From the NCBI GenBank assembly GCA_016235345.1, contig JACRLG010000024.1, positions 124,001-188,000 of the forward strand: a stretch of DNA of 64,000 nt. The letters run 5' to 3'. The position numbers were made by a program, and so were the translations under genes. Within the stretch, counting starts at the first letter, position 1; each line of letters starts with the position of its first letter. The notes below the pieces were generated by a model, which searched no databases, was not told the origin of the DNA, and was given only the letters and a program-made list of their open reading frames with translations. Below, piece after piece: positions 2,470-11,491 of this stretch. Origin of the DNA: Deltaproteobacteria bacterium. GTDB taxonomy: Bacteria; Desulfobacterota; Desulfobacteria; Desulfobacterales; Desulfatibacillaceae.

Positions 2470-5400
2470 ATGAAACGCACCAAGGACAGGCTTCACCGGG
2501 TAATGGTGATCGGGGCGACTCCGGCGGGAATCGCCGCCGTGAACAAGCTGGGCGAGCTTGGCGTTCCGGTGACCCTGGTGGACCCGGACCCGGACCTGAA
2601 CGAAAAGCTGGCCCGCGAGGAATGGCGGCTGCCGAGCGGTGTGGCACTAAATTACGCCCACCGGTCGGGCCTTCTGCGCATCCTGCGCAATCCGTCCATC
2701 AGGCTCATCGCTCCGGCTGAGGTTCTTTCGGTCAAGAACACCGCAGAAGGCTTTTCCGCCCGCATAAGAAGCCGTTCGGTCTACGTTGACGAAACCCGCT
2801 GCACCCTGTGCGGGGCCTGCGCCAAGGTCTGCCCGATCTCCATGCCGGACGGATCGAAACCCCTGGCCTACGCGGGCCGAATGAGCCTTCCGGGCAGGGC
2901 CAGAATCGAAAAACGGAACGAGCCGCCCTGCAAACAGGGCTGCCCCCTTGGGGTGAACGCCCAGGCATACCTTGCCCTTGCCAAGGCGGGCCGACACGCC
3001 GAGGCACTATCGGTGGTTCGGCGCGACAACGTCCTGCCGGGCATATGCGGCAGGGTTTGCAGCCACCCCTGCGAGAAGGACTGCCGCCGCGCGGAAATTG
3101 ACGCCCCACTCACCATCAGGGCCATCAAGCGCTTTCTGGCGGACTGGGAGATTTCCCATCCGCAGGATGACCCTTGCGCCTTCGAGCCTTTCCGGGGGCA
3201 GAAGGTGGCGGTTATCGGCTCCGGCCCCGCAGGGCTGGCCGCCGCTGCCGACCTTGCAGGGCTTGGGTATGAAGTGACCATTCTCGAACGGGAAAAGGAG
3301 GCGGGCGGCCTTCTGCGTTACGCCATAGGCCCCTACAGGCTCCCCCGCGAGATTCTGGACCGTGAAATCACCCGCATAGAGGCAATGGGCGTAAAAATCG
3401 AAACCGGGCGCGGACTCGATTTCAAAAAGGACCTGACCGCGCTTGCAAAGAAGTACGATGCGGTCTTGCTGGCCGTGGGCTCGTGGACCGACCGGAAGCT
3501 CGGAATGCCGGGCGAGGATTTGAAAGGAGTGGAAGGCGCAGTCTTCTTTCTTTCAAAGGTCCACCGCAAGGAAATAAGCTCGCTTCCGGGTAAAACCGCC
3601 ATAATCGGCGACGGCAACTCGGCCTTTGACGTGGCCCGCACGGTGAAGCGCCTTGGCGGCGATCCCACCATAATTTCCTGGTTTCCCGCCGACATGATTC
3701 CGGCTGACGAGGACGAGATACGGGCGGCGGCGGAGGAGGGCATCCCCATCATCTTCAAAACCCGTGTGGTGGAGTTTGAAGGCAGGGGCGGAAAGCTGGC
3801 GGGCCTTGTCTGCCGGGCCACCAGGCCCGGAAAGCCCGATGCAAATGGCATAGCCTGGCCGGTCACCGTGCCGGATTCAAAGCCTTTGGATATCCCCTTT
3901 GACCGGGCCATCGTGGCCATCGGTCAGGCCGGGCCTTTTTTCGGGACGGATGAAAAGCCGGGCGTCGGCGTGAACCAGGCCGGGTACATCGAGGCCGATG
4001 CCCATAAGACCAGCGCCGGGAAGGTCTACGCGGCGGGAGACTCCGTCACCGGACCCTCCACCGTGGTACACGCCATGGCCAGCGGCAGGAGCGCCGCAAG
4101 GGCCATTCACCGCGATCTTTCGGGCGAGGATGTTTTTCCCCGCGCCGTCCGTCCCACGGATAGGAATTTCGCGCCCATAGGGGCCGATCTTCCGTCCCTT
4201 TCCCGGGCCGTCGAGCCCGAACGCCGGGCCAACACCCGCGTTGCCGATTTCGGCGAGGCCGTGCTTGGGCTTTCGGAGGCCCAGGCGGTTTCCGAGGCCG
4301 AAAGATGCCTTCAGTGCGGCGGATGCTGCGAATGCCTCCTCTGCGAAACGGCCTGCGAGGCGGCGGGAGCCGTTGTCCACGATGCGCCGGATACGGAAAC
4401 CAAGGAGCACGCCGGGGTGGTGATTCTGGCCGACCCCGATCTTGCGCCATCGCTCAAGGGCGACGACGTTATAAGGGCCTACGGGCCCCCTGCCGCCAAG
4501 AGTGACGTTCACGCAATGATGCTGCGCGGTTTTGCGGCGGCGGGCCAGGCCATGACCCTTCTGGCCGAAACCTCCGAGCGGCCCCGTGGTCGCGGCGGCA
4601 TGGTTGCAGCAGCCGATACCGGCCTTGACCCTGAAATACGCGTGGGCGTTTTCGTTTGCAGGTGCAACGATTCCCTTGGCTGGAACGGCGAGTTATCGGA
4701 ATTCGTGGAAAACCTGGGCCAAAACCCGGACGTGGTTCACGCGGAAACAATAAGCTGCGCATGCTCCCCCGAAGGGGCCGCCGGAATCGTGCGCACCATA
4801 AAACGCAAGGGCATCACCCGCGCGGTTATGGCGAGCTGCGCCTGCTGCCCCTTGGATTTCGTCTGCTCGGCCTGCACCGATCAGAGAAGCCGCTTGAAAC
4901 ACGGCCTTTTCAAGGGGACCGGCGTGTCCCGCTCAATGGTGGAGACGGTGAACATCCGGGGCGAGGCCCTTTCCCTTCTGGCCGTAAACCCCGAAACCGC
5001 CCTTGGCCGGTTCAGGGGGCTCCTCACCCGCGCCATCCGCCGGGTCAAGAGGGTGAAAGCCCTTCCGGTTCCCCACCGCTCATACAACTTCACGGTGGCT
5101 GTGATTGGCTCCACCGAGGCCGCAGTTCAGGCCGCCGACACGCTGGCCCTTTCCGGCCACGAGGTTTTCGTGTTCTCCAACGACGAATCCCCGGAACTTG
5201 CGGAATTCGCCAACGTGCACCGCTTCCCGGAATCGGGGGTGGTCTCCCTTTCCGGCACGGTGGGGGATTTCCGGGTTCTCCTTTCAACGGAAACCGGACA
5301 GCGCACCGTTCACGCCGGGGCGGTGATACTGGGAACCGAGGACGACTCAGCGATATCCTACACCCCCCACGAGGGCATACCCGGACGAATCGTGGAGTCG

Positions 5401-5814
5401 GCCCTTCAGAAAGCGGGGGAGGCGGGGATACCCTTCCTGTTTCCGGGCGGCACCTCGGTTGCGGGGCTTTTCCTGGCCGACTGCATGGGCCTGAAGGTCT
5501 CCGAGCGCAAGAAGGGCCTTGCCGCCGCCGTGTGCGCGGCGTCCGTCATGCCAAGGGGCCCGCGCCAGAGCAAGGGCTACACCGTTTCGGTGGACGCCGA
5601 GCGTTGCCGGGGATGCGGGGCCTGCGTGGCCGTGTGCCCGTATCAGGCCGTGACTCTGGAAAGAAACGGCAACGGCGGTTACAGCGCCAGGGTGGACGAG
5701 GCCCTCTGCAAGGGCTGCGGCAACTGCATCAGCCTCTGCCCGCCATCGGCCATGGACAGCCCATACAGGAGCAGGGCCTATCTTGGAAGAATTTTGGAAG
5801 AAGTGCTGTCGTAA
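2470..5814 (+). CDS. Giant HdrA/GltD fusion flavoprotein (iron-sulfur, NAD(P)H-type)
   Basis: This 1114-residue cytoplasmic flavoprotein reads as joined modules. It opens with a dinucleotide-binding motif (residues 12-20) and a four-cysteine [4Fe-4S] motif, CTLCGACAKVCP (about 111). A GltD/NfnB-like part follows, with a Cys-rich adaptor (about 155-235), FAD motif VIGSGPAGLAAA (about 247) and NAD(P)H motif IIGDGNSAFDVAR (about 378). Next come an HdrA-type N-terminal module (VFVCRCN about 728, and a Cys-rich ASCACC segment), a second dinucleotide fold, and two [4Fe-4S] motifs at about 1046 and 1081. Large HdrA proteins with a GltD-like part are thought to bring NAD(P)H into Hdr-type electron bifurcation. 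Placement directly after korABC suggests exchange of electrons between ferredoxin, NAD(P)H and the Hdr proteins that follow; that role is inferred. Confidence 0.8.
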   Translation: MKRTKDRLHRVMVIGATPAGIAAVNKLGELGVPVTLVDPDPDLNEKLAREEWRLPSGVALNYAHRSGLLRILRNPSIRLIAPAEVLSVKNTAEGFSARIRSRSVYVDETRCTLCGACAKVCPISMPDGSKPLAYAGRMSLPGRARIEKRNEPPCKQGCPLGVNAQAYLALAKAGRHAEALSVVRRDNVLPGICGRVCSHPCEKDCRRAEIDAPLTIRAIKRFLADWEISHPQDDPCAFEPFRGQKVAVIGSGPAGLAAAADLAGLGYEVTILEREKEAGGLLRYAIGPYRLPREILDREITRIEAMGVKIETGRGLDFKKDLTALAKKYDAVLLAVGSWTDRKLGMPGEDLKGVEGAVFFLSKVHRKEISSLPGKTAIIGDGNSAFDVARTVKRLGGDPTIISWFPADMIPADEDEIRAAAEEGIPIIFKTRVVEFEGRGGKLAGLVCRATRPGKPDANGIAWPVTVPDSKPLDIPFDRAIVAIGQAGPFFGTDEKPGVGVNQAGYIEADAHKTSAGKVYAAGDSVTGPSTVVHAMASGRSAARAIHRDLSGEDVFPRAVRPTDRNFAPIGADLPSLSRAVEPERRANTRVADFGEAVLGLSEAQAVSEAERCLQCGGCCECLLCETACEAAGAVVHDAPDTETKEHAGVVILADPDLAPSLKGDDVIRAYGPPAAKSDVHAMMLRGFAAAGQAMTLLAETSERPRGRGGMVAAADTGLDPEIRVGVFVCRCNDSLGWNGELSEFVENLGQNPDVVHAETISCACSPEGAAGIVRTIKRKGITRAVMASCACCPLDFVCSACTDQRSRLKHGLFKGTGVSRSMVETVNIRGEALSLLAVNPETALGRFRGLLTRAIRRVKRVKALPVPHRSYNFTVAVIGSTEAAVQAADTLALSGHEVFVFSNDESPELAEFANVHRFPESGVVSLSGTVGDFRVLLSTETGQRTVHAGAVILGTEDDSAISYTPHEGIPGRIVESALQKAGEAGIPFLFPGGTSVAGLFLADCMGLKVSERKKGLAAAVCAASVMPRGPRQSKGYTVSVDAERCRGCGACVAVCPYQAVTLERNGNGGYSARVDEALCKGCGNCISLCPPSAMDSPYRSRAYLGRILEEVLS

Positions 5815-5874: not shown

Positions 5875-7467
5875 ATGGATAACCGGGATGAATTGAAAAT
5901 ACTCGTGTTCCTGTGCAACTGGGGGCCGCACGCGGCCTTCCAGGCCCTGCAGGACGCGGGCAACCCCGTTCTTTCGCGCCTTCGGATGGTAAGGGTGCCC
6001 TGTTCGGGCCGCATGACCAAGGCCCTCATGTTCAAACCCTTCGAGATGGGAGCCGACGGCGTGGTTCTTCTGGGCTGCGGGGAGGGCTCCTGCCGCTACG
6101 GGGTGGGGACTTCCACGGCCAGGAACAACGTGGAAGACACCAGGGAAATTCTCGACATGCTGGGCCTTTCGGGCGAGCGCCTGGCCCACGCCCATTTCCG
6201 CGAGGAGGAATCCGAAGGCATGCTGGCCTTTCTGGCGGATTTTCTGGCCAGGGTGGAAGGCCTGGGCAAAAGCCCAATCAGGCCGCACCCTGTGGCCGAA
6301 GCAGCCGCCGAGCCGGCGGAGCGCATCCGGGAAATAGTAAAGGCCCACGACGTTTTTGCCTGCCAGGACTGCGGAAAATGCACCTCCGCCTGCTCCCTGA
6401 CCCTTGCCGGCAAGCCCTTTTCACCAAGGGCCATGGCGTCATCCCTCATAAGCGGCGATTTCGAGAGCGAGGCCGTAACCAAGGGCATATGGGCCTGCCT
6501 CACCTGCGGGCTGTGCTACGACCGCTGCCCAAGCGCCGTGAATTTCCCGGAATTCGTGCGGGAGGTAAGGGCGGTTCTATACGATGCGGGCCTTAAGGGG
6601 GTAACCGCGCACGACGGATTTTTCCAGTCCCTCTCCCGCGCGATGACCTCCAAGGACCTTGGTTTCAAGCGCTGGGACTGGCTTTCGCCCGATCTGTCCC
6701 TTGATCCTTCCGGCAAGACCCTCTTTTTCGGCGGCTGCGCCCCCTTCTTCGATGTTTTTTTCCGGCACAGCCTCAAGGTCAATACCCGGAAAATCCTTGA
6801 GGACAGCATAAGGCTGATGAATTTTTTCGACATCAAGCCGATGGTTCTCGAAAACGAACGATGCTGCGGCCACGACCTTTTGGTCTCCGGCGACCGGGAG
6901 AACTTTCTGGTGCTCGCAAGGCAGAACGCCGCCGCCATCAACGATTCGGGGGCCGAGGAAGTGGTTGTCGCCTGCCCGGAAGGCTATCGGGCTTTAACCC
7001 AGGATTACCCCCGTGAGGGCGCGCCCATCAACATCCCCGTTACGCACATACTGGACCTTGTGGAAAGAAACGTTGCCAAGGGCGCGGTTGCCTTCAAAAG
7101 CAAGGGGCAGAAATTCACCTTTCAGGACCCCTGCCGCCTAAGCCGCCACGCCGGGCTTTCGGCGCTTCCAAGGCAGCTTCTTGCTCGCTTCGGAAGATCG
7201 GCCCTAAAGGAGATGCCAAGGAAGGGAACCGGGGCGGTATGCTGCGGCAACTCGGCCTGGACCGGCTGCGACGGCTTTTCCAAGGCCCTCCAGGTGGAGC
7301 GACTGAAGGAAGCCAGGTCCACAGGGGCGAGCCTTCTGGTCACCGCCTGCCCAAAATGCCAGATTCACCTTGCCTGCGCCATGAATGACCCCTTCATGAA
7401 AAAGGACCTGGAAATGGAAATGGAGGACATAACCTGCCTTCTTTCCAAAACCATATACTGGGAATAG
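5875..7467 (+). CDS. MvhD-HdrC-HdrB fusion protein
   Basis: This 530-residue protein combines three modules. Residues 1 to about 140 resemble MvhD, a [2Fe-2S] electron-transfer subunit. An HdrC-like part follows with two [4Fe-4S] motifs ([11 protein letters not shown] and [12 protein letters not shown]). The C-terminal HdrB-like part has two CCG domains; the second is complete (C, 35 residues, CC, 34 residues, CPKC), while the first ends in CPEG and lacks its last cysteine. HdrB CCG domains hold the non-cubane clusters that reduce disulfides in heterodisulfide reductase. The MvhD part has CNWG where the family usually has CNWC. I chose ATG 5875 (GGGGAAA upstream) over a GTG at 5821. It sits 60 bp after the HdrA/GltD gene and 5 bp before hdrA. 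The final electron acceptor is unknown. Confidence 0.82.
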
Positions 7468-7472
7468 ACGCC

Positions 7473-9920
7473 ATGCAGAACCCAAGAAAGACATCGCCCG
7501 CCGGGGAGCCCAGAATCGGCGTTTACGTCTGCCATTGCGGCCACAACATAGGAAAGGTTGTGGACTGCGCGGCAGTCGCCGAAAAGGCCCTGGGCTATCC
7601 CTTTGTGGTGTCCGCCACCGACGTGGCCTACGCCTGCTCCGAGCCGGGGCAGGAGGCCATCAGGAACGACATCGCAGAAAAGAACATCAACCGCGTGGTG
7701 GTGGCGTCCTGCTCCCCAAGGCTTCACGAGCCCACCTTCCGACGGATGCTTTCCGACGCGGGTTTGAATCCGTATCTCCTGGAAATGGCGAACCTTCGGG
7801 AGCAGTGCTCCTGGGTCCACATGTTTGAGCCGGAAAACGCCACCATAAAGGCCGTTGATCTCGTGCGCATGTCGGCGGCCAGGGCTGCTGGCCTCGACTC
7901 CCTGTACGAGGAAAAGCATTCGCTGGTCAAACGCACCCTGGTGATCGGCGGCGGGGTCGCGGGCATCCAGGCGGCCCTGGACTTGGCCGATTCGGGCTAC
8001 GAGGTGGTCCTGGTGGAAAAAAGCCCCACCATAGGCGGGGTCATGGCCTTGCTGGACAAGACCTTTCCGACCATAGACTGCAGTATCTGAATACTTGGCC
8101 CGAAAATGACGGATGCCGGTCGGCATCCCAACATAACGATTCACACGCTTAGCGAAGTAACCGACGTATCCGGCTCAGTGGGCAATTTCTCCGTGACGGT
8201 CAGGAAAAAGGCCCGGTTCGTGAACGATAAGGACTGCACCTCCTGCGGCGACTGCTCCAAGGTCTGCCCGGTGGTGCGGCCCGACGAGTTCAACCAGGGC
8301 CTGGGCTCCCGCAAGGCCATATTCAAGCCCTTTCCCCAGGCCGTGCCGTCGAGCTACCTCATCAACGTGAACGAGTGCCTGGGGCATAACCCGGCGGTGT
8401 GCTCCAAGTGCGTGGACGCCTGCACCAAGGGCTGCATAGATTTTCACATGTCCGACTCTGAATTCACCGTGGACGTGGGAGCCGTTATCGTGGCCACCGG
8501 GCTTTCCGTGTACGACCCCACCGAACAGGACGAATACGGCTACACCCGGTTTGAGAATGTTCTCACCAGCATGGAGTTCGAGCGGCTCATAAACGCGGGC
8601 GGCCCCACAAAGGGCGAAGTCCTTCGGCCCACCGACCGCGAGGTGCCGAAGCGCGTGGGTTTCATCCAGTGCGTGGGAAGCCGGAACGCCAGGAAGGGCG
8701 GAAGCTACTGCTCGAACGTGTGCTGCATGAACACCGTCAAGTCCTCGCTCATGCTGAAGGAGCACTACCCCGGAATCGACGTCACGGTGTTTTACATGGA
8801 CATCCGGGCTTTCGGAAAGGGCTTCGAGGACCTGTATTTAAGAAGCCGCCGCCTGGGGACCCGCTATCTGCGCGGCCTTCCCGGAACGGTGTCGGAAAAC
8901 CCCGATAAAAGCCTCACCGTCTCGGTGGAAAACACGGCCACTGGCAAGGTGGAGACCGTAACGCTCGACATGCTGGTGCTGGCCGTGGGCATAAAGCCCT
9001 CCCCCGACACCCAGCGCATAAAGGAGATGCTGGGTCTTCAGCTTACCAGCGACGGATTTTTCCTGGAGGCCCACCCTAAGCTCCAGCCGGTGGACGCAGC
9101 CACCAGGGGCGTTTTTTATGCGGGCTGCGCCGAGGGCCCCAAGGACATCAAGGACTCGGTGACCCAGGCTTCCGCCGCTGCGGCGCGGGCCATAAGGCTT
9201 CTGCACAAGGGCGAGATAAGCTCTGAGCCCATAATCTCGGTGATAGACCCTGAAAAATGCAAGTTCTGCGGAAAATGCGCCGAGGTCTGCCCGTACAAGG
9301 CCATCACCGTTGACGTAAAGCGCAAAATCGCCGCCCAGGTGAATACGGCGGCCTGCGCCGGGTGCGGAACCTGCGCCGCCGAGTGCAGGTTCGATGCAAT
9401 TTCCATGAACCACTTCACCGATCCTCAAATCGAGAGCCAGGTGGACGCACTTCTGTGTGAAAACCCGGAGGGCAAGATTTTAACCTTCGCCTGCAACTGG
9501 TGCTCCTACGCGGGCGCTGACAACGCGGGCGTGGCAAGGCTCCAGTATCCGCCAAACGCCCGGCTCATCCGCACAATGTGTTCGGGGCGGGTGGATGAAA
9601 AATTCATCTGGCGGGGCCTTAAAAAAGGTGTGCCGGTGATTCTGGTTTCCGGCTGCCACATCGGCGACTGCCATTACATAGACGCCAACCACTGGACCGT
9701 GAAGCGCGTGGAAAAGGTACGCGAAAAAATGGCCAAGCTCGGCATACGTCCCGAACGGCTCCAACTCGAATGGATAAGCGCCGCAGAAGGAATACGCTTC
9801 GCCAATATAATGACCCGCATGGAGGAACTGCGCCGGGGAGTGACGGCTGAGGAAATAGCGGAAACCCGCCGGATACTCCTGGCCGAGGATGAAAGGAAGG
9901 CTGCGAAAAAGACATCCTGA
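7473..9920 (+). CDS. hdrA: HdrA-MvhD fusion, predicted selenoprotein (in-frame TGA = Sec206)
   Basis: A single 815-residue HdrA reading frame is interrupted only by TGA at 8088-8090. Upstream are the HdrA N-terminal cysteines (CHCG), the conserved [10 protein letters not shown] segment and the FAD motif [19 protein letters not shown]. The frame then reads [18 protein letters not shown], where ordinary HdrA has DCSxC followed by IL.PKM, so the TGA replaces a conserved cysteine. Downstream are further Fe-S motifs ([35 protein letters not shown]) and a C-terminal MvhD domain from about residue 670 ([26 protein letters not shown]). HdrA is the flavin-bifurcating subunit of Hdr complexes, and Sec-HdrA is known in some archaea and bacteria. 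QmoB, an HdrA-MvhD relative, is less likely because no qmoC, apr or sat genes are near. A simple nonsense mutation is the alternative. Confidence 0.85.
8088..8128 (+). promoter_or_regulatory. Predicted bacterial SECIS element (UGA codon plus downstream hairpin)
   Basis: The TGA at 8088-8090 is followed by a perfect 7-bp stem, GGATGCC (8111-8117) and GGCATCC (8122-8128), closing a GGTC loop. The loop starts 27 nt after the TGA, inside the usual range for bacterial SECIS elements, and contains the G-U expected for SelB binding. The hairpin lies within the hdrA coding sequence. Recoding is therefore predicted, not shown. Confidence 0.75.
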
Positions 9921-9946: not shown

Positions 9947-11491
9947 TTGACCCCTGATCGGACAAATGCCATGACAACCGCCGCAAGCCTAACACGGGCA
10001 AAGTTTTTCTTCGCCTTGTCGGCTTCGACGGTTGTCCTGTTTCATGCGGCCTGGGCTTTTCTCTGGCCGGACGTTTTCTATTTCCCCGACTCCCTGGATT
10101 TTTTCGACACCCTGGAATACTGGGACCGGAACCACGCCCTTTTTGTGGGCTATCTCCGCACCCCCGCATACCCGCTCTTTTTCCTGGCTCTTCATAAGAC
10201 CTTAGGCCTTGGCCTCCTGGCCCTTGTCCAGCATTCAAGCCTCGCGGCCATGATCGCGCTTTCCGGCCTTGTTCTGGGCCGGATGCTCAAAAGCCGCCAA
10301 GGCTGGATCATCGCCGGAATTTTCACCCTGGTTGCGGGTTTCGCCCCTTCCCAGTTCATGTACGCCTCCCACGCCATGACCGAGGGGCTCGCAACCCAGG
10401 CGCTTCTTGCCGTAATCCTATGCTTTATCCTTTGGATGTCGCGCTCAAGCGCTCTTTCCGTGGCGGTATTGGGCCTTGTGCTCGCCGTGGCGGTTCTATT
10501 GCGGGCCGTGAACGTGATCCTGGTTCCGCTGGCCCTGGCTTTCGTCCTCGTTATCACCACAAAAAACCGGGGAGCCGGGAAAGCCCTTCTTCACGCGGCC
10601 ATATTATGCGCGGTGTTTTTCATCACGGTTTTTCCCTGGATGCGATACAATAAAATCGTTCACTCCCGCTTCGCCCTTTCCAACATGGGAGCCCTGGCCC
10701 TGGTCCACTCATACAGCCATCTCATCGACATGGATTCGGGAAGGTTTTCCGAAATCAAAAACGTCCTGCGGCCCGTCCATGAAAAGGAGATGGATGCCCG
10801 AAAAAGCCTGTCGCCGGAAGCGCTCATGTTTGACGGCATGAAAAGGGCCTGCGGGGAAAATTCCTACTTCGACATCCTCATGAAAAAATTCGGCTACACC
10901 ATCCCCCAACTGGACAAGGTGATGAAGGCCCTGGTTTTCGAGGGGATGAAAAAGCGCCCGGACGAGGTCGCCTCCCTGGTTCTGAGGCGCTTCTGGCATT
11001 TGATCACCAGGGCTCCGGGCCTTAGCGAGCGGGCGCTTGTGGAAAACCTTTATTTCTGGGTCGAAACCCCGCCTTCCCCCAACATGAGGCGGGACGCCCC
11101 GGCGCTTTTCACGCGATACGGACTTGTGACGCCGCTTTCCCCCGGCGCGGCGGCCCGGAAGGAGAGGGCGAGGCCTCTTTGGAGGATTGAGGAAATCCTT
11201 TCGGGCTTCTACGTAAAGGCCGCCCCGGCCTTTCTGTGGCTCGGCGTTCTCCTGCTTCCGGCGCTCAGGCGGCGGGGGCCTTTTGCCGTTGGCCTTTTCT
11301 GCGTGGGCCTGGTGCTTGCCCCTTTTGGGGTCACGGCGGCCATGACCCCGCCGGAGTTCCGTTTTTACCAGCCCTTCTCGGTTCCGGTGATGTTCCTCCT
11401 GGCCCTTGAAATTTCTGCCTTCTGGCCCCTTATGGCGAGAGCCGCAGAATACGTCTCCCGGCTCCTCAAAAAACCGGAAAGTTCCCCATGA
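9947..11491 (+). CDS. Membrane glycosyltransferase-like protein (GT39/ArnT-like)
   Basis: This 514-residue protein has many hydrophobic segments, starting around residues 20-42 and repeating through the first half, with another set in the last 110 residues. Short acidic loops such as FPDSLDFFDTLEYWDRN and the RTPAYPLF stretch near the first loop resemble polyprenol-phosphate-dependent mannosyl- or arabinosyltransferase membrane proteins. A catalytic role is not proven by any single motif. A TTG at 9947 has AAAGGA a few bases upstream; ATG 9971 (MTTAASLT...) is an alternative start. It follows hdrA by 26 bp, and its end overlaps the next gene by 4 bp (ATGA), so the two are likely cotranscribed. 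Confidence 0.55.
   Translation: MTPDRTNAMTTAASLTRAKFFFALSASTVVLFHAAWAFLWPDVFYFPDSLDFFDTLEYWDRNHALFVGYLRTPAYPLFFLALHKTLGLGLLALVQHSSLAAMIALSGLVLGRMLKSRQGWIIAGIFTLVAGFAPSQFMYASHAMTEGLATQALLAVILCFILWMSRSSALSVAVLGLVLAVAVLLRAVNVILVPLALAFVLVITTKNRGAGKALLHAAILCAVFFITVFPWMRYNKIVHSRFALSNMGALALVHSYSHLIDMDSGRFSEIKNVLRPVHEKEMDARKSLSPEALMFDGMKRACGENSYFDILMKKFGYTIPQLDKVMKALVFEGMKKRPDEVASLVLRRFWHLITRAPGLSERALVENLYFWVETPPSPNMRRDAPALFTRYGLVTPLSPGAAARKERARPLWRIEEILSGFYVKAAPAFLWLGVLLLPALRRRGPFAVGLFCVGLVLAPFGVTAAMTPPEFRFYQPFSVPVMFLLALEISAFWPLMARAAEYVSRLLKKPESSP

Follow-up and report, generated by a model that had tools for sequence, protein, structure and literature searches.

An in-frame UGA codon in a fused HdrA-MvhD gene of the Desulfatibacillaceae is most probably read as selenocysteine

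We analysed a 64,000-nucleotide stretch of DNA (the window) from a deltaproteobacterial genome of the Desulfatibacillaceae. The gene at positions 7473-9920, which appears to be broken by an in-frame TGA, most probably (we put the probability at about 0.95) encodes one 815-residue selenoprotein, an HdrA2 (type Ia) in which UGA206 is read as selenocysteine (Sec206). As such it would be a further example of an already described kind of enzyme, selenium-containing HdrA. That the enzyme carries Sec206 had been proposed in a preliminary description of this DNA, and the proposal now finds strong support in the exchange of TGA with cysteine codons among relatives, in the conservation of a downstream hairpin and in the presence of the selenocysteine machinery in the genome.

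Results

An HdrA2-type frame with a single internal TGA

The elements of the gene are as follows:
7473-9920, + strand: hdrA2-type gene, HdrA with a C-terminal MvhD/FlpD domain; 815 amino acids with the TGA read through
8088-8090, + strand: in-frame TGA, probably read as selenocysteine (Sec206)
8091-8105, + strand: the I-L-G-P-K codons that separate the TGA from the next in-frame ATG; invariant amino acids with varied synonymous positions
8111-8128, + strand: bacterial SECIS-like hairpin, 7-bp stem and GGTC loop; 20 nt between the TGA and the hairpin

Apart from the TGA at codon 206, which stands in the context DCSI-TGA-ILGPKM, no stop codon lies inside the frame, in agreement with the earlier claim of an HdrA frame broken only at 8088-8090; the terminal stop is also TGA. 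In a profile search the NCBI/NCBIfam model NF040770 (HdrA2) matches residues 14-794 of the product with 1189 bits (cut-off 1100), and PF02662 (FlpD/MvhD) matches residues 669-785. It is this near full-length match above the cut-off, combined with the C-terminal PF02662 domain, that identifies the product as HdrA2 (type Ia). The sequence of chain 5odc_A matches residues 12-660, and alignment to it places E370 and K423 of the product at E356 and K409, residues described as key for bifurcation in HdrA (PMC12054007); both are kept in 142/142 distinct full-length fused genes. The product is best explained as a flavoprotein, predicted to bifurcate electrons, to which an MvhD domain is fused.

The preliminary description had considered the fused MvhD an unusual architecture. 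This view is not borne out: the NF040770 match runs through residues 14-794, such fusions form a class with a name of its own (type Ia, HdrA2), and among 342 relatives found in named genomes the best 80 all match to residue 795 or beyond and all have TGA. Novelty of the HdrA-MvhD fusion is thus ruled out by the HdrA2 model and the named relatives, as well as by the descriptions in PMC12054007 and PMC6019823.

Selenocysteine and cysteine codons alternate at residue 206

In alignment, the counterpart of residue 206 is C197 in 5odc_A, which corroborates the earlier placement of the TGA at a conserved HdrA cysteine, and with X, a non-standard residue that is taken to be Sec, in 9sfi_A. The motif of the predicted product is C203-S-I-U206; CxxU is given as the motif of the heterodisulfide reductase alpha subunit, a known selenoprotein family under NF040770, in a 2026 review (PMC13188914).

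The codon at this site was compared in three samples. The order-level set holds 66 loci, i.e. the window's own and 65 from a search of 146 order-level relatives; the site is covered in 64 of them (50 TGA, 11 TGC and 3 TGT, the window's own included). A search across the phylum gave 54 matches in 46/297 genomes, of which 29 were added, 6 were already in the set and 19 were left out (17 listed with one in-frame TGA and 2 with none). The enlarged set started from 175 loci, 173 of them with a match covering site 206; after dropping 15 copies identical around the site and then 16 that were not full length through MvhD (including unfused Cys-type HdrA), it comprised 142 distinct full-length fused genes. 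Some matches carry an extra TAA or TAG (G105, G117, G037, G130:C99, G274:C1 and G275:C34). Aligning the homologues for C or U at residue 206, a check put forward in the preliminary description, gave 123 TGA, 13 TGC, 6 TGT and no other codon in the 142 genes, the window's included; 123:19 is not a population frequency, the phylum additions having been chosen partly for lack of TGA. In these 142 genes the site is predicted to alternate between Sec and Cys only. Among the best 80 of 342 loci in named genomes the codon is TGA in 80/80, including those of Desulfatibacillum alkenivorans, Desulfobulbus rhabdoformis, Desulfobulbus elongatus, Desulfogranum marinum, Desulfogranum mediterraneum and Desulfoprunum benzoelyticum.

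On the tree, at least 4 changes between Sec and Cys are needed, the exact number being soft (FastTree, some long branches). The Cys genes nearest to Sec genes are two single ones, L066 (70.5% identical) and L199 (65.6%), both without the hairpin; L066 lies outside every well-supported small group. The genome G057 contains both a Sec copy (L045) and a Cys copy (L066) of the fused HdrA. In G274 the Cys copy L199 is accompanied by a second match (C2:12444-14822) listed with one in-frame TGA, and this genome probably has both forms as well.

A hairpin downstream of the TGA is conserved with it

The hairpin at 8111-8128 (GGATGCC-GGTC-GGCATCC) is a perfect 7-bp stem with a GGTC loop located 21-38 nt after the TGA, exactly as first reported. 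By itself it is uncommon and no proof of a SECIS element: with a loop of 3-8 nt and a stem starting 10-30 nt after a TGA in any frame, a perfect 7-bp stem follows 14/889 TGAs on the + strand of the window (8088 included) and 16/864 on the - strand. Folding energy was rejected as proof of the hairpin, being ordinary for the composition (z -1.20; 24/200 shuffles fold at least as well). We accept the hairpin as SECIS-like because it is conserved in relatives, and not because of its folding energy. Counting G-U as a pair, 123/123 TGA genes keep at least 6 of the 7 stem pairs at the same distance (all 7 in 113 genes, 6 in 10), and 19/19 Cys genes keep 2-5 of 7.

Covariation was scored in an alignment of 81 sequences without gaps, with 72 distinct rows counted. 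In the aligned hairpins 99.2% of cells are paired; sliding the partner by 1-3 columns lowers this to 23-58%. Two-sided changes occur in 26/504 cells, compared with 10.4 +/- 5.3 in shuffles (0/500 as high). All of them fall in one of the seven stem pairs, and five pairs never vary; the number of covarying pairs, i.e. those that change on both sides, is not above shuffles, 402/500 of which reach it. In the covarying pair, position 2 of an Ala/Val codon is matched with position 3 of an Arg codon; the pair is found as UA, CG and UG, never as C-A. Its Fisher p is 1e-14 in the 80 named loci, uncorrected for relatedness. When relatedness is corrected for, 14 independent lineage pairs differ at the first base, and the partner base changes along with it in an average of 10.9 of them, against it in 0 and not at all in 3.1 (sign test, median p 0.001). 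Third bases within the stem are frozen (0-0.32 bits) except in the covarying Arg codon (0.99), and codons 1-5 and 13 after the TGA are free (0.99-1.75 bits at the third base). What marks a SECIS hairpin, a position just downstream of the TGA and a footprint of selection, is found in 7473-9920. The Rfam gathering scan of the 64-kb window returned nothing and ARAGORN found no tRNA in it; both results are without bearing on the SECIS element.

The genome encodes the selenocysteine machinery

The window's genome (4.01 Mb in 36 contigs, 97.4% complete) contains selA (587.5 bits), selB (360.6 bits), selD (342.8 bits) and tRNA-Sec with anticodon tca (74.9 bits), all above the curated cut-offs. All four genes whose presence had been named as a check, with selC in the form of tRNA-Sec, are accordingly in place. 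Co-occurrence with selB was rejected as proof of Sec, as it does not discriminate: at E 1e-60 a match is found in 43/50 genomes with a TGA gene (the window's own included) and in 82/96 others. Among the 7/50 TGA-gene genomes lacking a selB match, G003, G040 and G102 are rated 91-100% complete and are each in about 330 or more contigs.

The selD gene (L032 at 1531) has an in-frame TGA of its own (RASG-TGA-AAKLGPG), which is consistent with a Sec-containing SelD.

Alternative readings of the TGA

The ORF listing gives 7473-8090 and 8106-9920 as separate frames, as expected if a short HdrA N-terminal protein ended at the TGA and a second protein started at the next in-frame ATG (8106). Yet the five residues in between, ILGPK (codons 207-211), are invariant as protein in 81/81 sequences while their synonymous sites vary, which is what translation in this frame by read-through would produce. 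The match to the HdrA2 model runs across the junction, and an ordinary Cys codon occupies the site in 19/142 distinct full-length genes, which leaves a pair of genes very improbable. A sequencing error or pseudogene, with the TGA a mutated TGC or TGT, would need a single base change at a site that is Cys in 19/142 genes; against this, 122 further distinct full-length genes share the TGA, none of the best 80 named loci lacks it, it is conserved together with the hairpin, and the frame has no other internal stop. We consider such an error or decay extremely improbable.

The open frame across the TGA, beyond which nothing further was found in its favour, would also suit insertion of a residue other than selenocysteine (Trp, Gly or the product of near-cognate read-through). 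However, a simple sense role for TGA is unlikely because the gene's own final stop is TGA, and the TGA alternates with Cys codons only, genes with Cys at the site have lost the hairpin, and the Sec machinery is present in the genome. Decoding as another residue is thus highly unlikely, and selenocysteine at UGA206 is the reading that we retain.

The gene closes a kor-hdr cluster

Five genes precede 7473-9920 on the same strand:
1-547, + strand: korA-like, 2-oxoacid:ferredoxin oxidoreductase alpha subunit, 3' part; the start lies upstream of the window (L065 9364-10548)
678-1550, + strand: korB-like, thiamine diphosphate subunit (profile match)
1556-2128, + strand: korC-like, gamma subunit; start codon deduced from the frame, with 1547-2128 used for the search
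2470-5814, + strand: GltD-type NAD(P)-binding domain with HdrA pieces (HdrL-like/type III-like), 1114 residues (profile match)
5875-7467, + strand: MvhD/FlpD fused to an HdrC/HdrB-like (HdrD-like) iron-sulfur protein (profile match)

The open frame of the last of these starts at GTG 5821, ATG 5875 being the likelier start as judged from where the relatives' matches begin. The order is korA, korB, korC, GltD-HdrA fusion, MvhD-HdrD and finally HdrA-MvhD. All five upstream genes are found in the same order and strand in 45/47 named loci with at least 7.5 kb of upstream sequence, the exceptions being L146 (MvhD-HdrD gene only) and L179 (none of the five). The hydrogenase subunits FrhG and FrhA are absent beside hdrA, the genes upstream being kor, GltD-HdrA and MvhD-HdrD. 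Inspection by eye of the translation of the downstream gene (9947-11491) revealed no iron-sulfur motif. A light literature check found no paper title describing the kor-hdr cluster.

Full-length fusions of the GltD-HdrA type occur in 52 of the best 80 named loci. All 52 retain, in alignment with the HdrA N-terminal domain, four cysteines (C730, C732, C765 and C790), and all 52 have the nearby C792 and C793. The first flavoprotein half has no Cys at the Cys197/Sec206 place (column 62) in any of the full-length named relatives (0/52); the second half has a gap at the Cys197 place and a Cys at column 918 in 17/52.

Further candidate selenocysteine sites in the genome

Two other HdrA-like copies have a TGA exactly at the residue-206 site, in the context DCAM-TGA: L185 (G000:C35, HdrA residues 152-583) and L186 (G000:C13, residues 152-295). 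The window's genome has, on alignment, at least three Sec-HdrA candidates. The copies L183, L184 and L187 have TGC at this site. Separate MvhD/FlpD-like genes with an in-frame TGA at MvhD cysteines are found at L182 (G000:C28:148707-149078), L184 (G000:C2:74949-75353) and L186 (G000:C13:84069-84428); the TGA corresponds to query C728 in two and to C677 in one, i.e. to two different candidate Sec sites in one family. Since the five paralogue TGA contexts fold into mixed hairpins (z -1.79 to +0.09), it is their alignment that suggests Sec in the paralogues.

Discussion

In the proposed mechanism, the ribosome would read UGA206 as selenocysteine by means of SelA, SelB, SelD and tRNA-Sec, and the hairpin 21-38 nt downstream would bring in SelB. 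The HdrABC-MvhAGD structure contains an HdrA dimer in which the N-terminal cluster of one copy, part of the ferredoxin branch, has Cys197 of the second copy as a ligand (PMC9012536). Because Cys197 plays this role, the homologous Sec206 should be a cluster ligand across the dimer rather than a thiol catalyst; probably it likewise coordinates the partner copy's N-terminal [4Fe-4S] cluster, which belongs to the ferredoxin side. As for the partners, the gene order suggests, at roughly even odds, a joint assembly of HdrA-MvhD with the GltD-HdrA fusion, MvhD-HdrD and the 2-oxoacid:ferredoxin oxidoreductase encoded beside it, in which electrons would be exchanged among 2-oxoacid/ferredoxin, a thiol/disulfide partner and NAD(P)H. 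We know of no established natural disulfide substrate for an HdrA2-type enzyme here.

The fact that GltD-HdrA (2470-5814) keeps its N-terminal cysteines and has no Cys197 equivalent in its first half suggests a pairing with Sec-HdrA. The Sec206 selenolate would then ligate in trans the N-terminal [4Fe-4S] cluster of GltD-HdrA, forming an asymmetric HdrA heterodimer within a 2-oxoacid:ferredoxin oxidoreductase-Hdr assembly. HdrA heterodimers have been proposed from the same kind of cysteine complementarity (PMC9012536). Against such a heterodimer, the HdrA of 7473-9920 has its own N-terminal cysteines, so that a plain homodimer would satisfy the residues, and GltD-HdrA has C792 and C793 close by (52/52) as well as the Cys at column 918 in 17/52 relatives. 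We regard the heterodimer as a tentative and rather unlikely arrangement.

Selenium-containing HdrA has been described from bacteria including Deltaproteobacteria, with 16 HdrA selenoproteins in Table 1 of a 2006 survey (Genome Biology 2006, PMC1794560). The survey stresses hdrA-frhD-frhG-frhA(-glpC) operons with a separate FrhD, whereas 7473-9920 lies in a kor-hdr operon and includes MvhD by fusion. In Desulfococcus multivorans, dmul_C02770/80 (heterodisulfide reductase subunit A) is one of five genes reported with a UGA upstream of a SECIS element (2016, PMC5109826), and hdrA1 adjoins mvhD1 and a pyridine nucleotide-disulphide oxidoreductase (PMC5109826). As judged from locus numbers and gene order rather than from sequence, dmul_C02770/80 is likely to be hdrA1 and the orthologue of 7473-9920. 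Desulfobacterium autotrophicum HRM2 is a sulfate reducer with Sec-HdrA and, like the window's genome, with selA-D (2009, PMC2702500). By the description in PMC2702500, its HdrA1-A3 are encoded by two or three genes with a separate MvhD, which sets them apart from 7473-9920. Its HdrL, an HdrA/glutamate-synthase fusion, resembles 2470-5814 by domain make-up as described (PMC2702500), as does the type III HdrA with an inserted GltD (PMC12054007, likewise compared by description). The HdrL type 'seems unique' to HRM2 according to PMC2702500, yet 52 of the best 80 named loci have a similar fusion at full length.

Like 7473-9920, the HdrA2 (type Ia) proteins described from Methanosarcina and further archaea have a C-terminal MvhD (PMC12054007, PMC6019823). 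They differ in that the bacterial protein is predicted to carry Sec, which the parts of PMC12054007 and PMC6019823 that deal with the archaeal fused form do not describe for it. In PDB 5odc (the methanogen HdrABC-MvhAGD complex) and 9sfi, MvhD is a separate chain, whereas here it is fused. A lightly targeted search of the literature, covering papers in part, found no description of Sec in the fused HdrA-MvhD form.

With UGA206 read as selenocysteine, the apparently broken gene 7473-9920 becomes an intact predicted selenoenzyme. Since the predicted fused Sec form is the only form among the best 80 of 342 named relatives, surveys that read TGA as a stop would miss or split the gene. Finally, the natural Sec and Cys copies in G057, and probably in G274, may offer a clean system for studying the role of a selenolate at the cluster ligand of a bifurcating enzyme, and the copies of these two genomes would form a natural pair for a study of selenium limitation.
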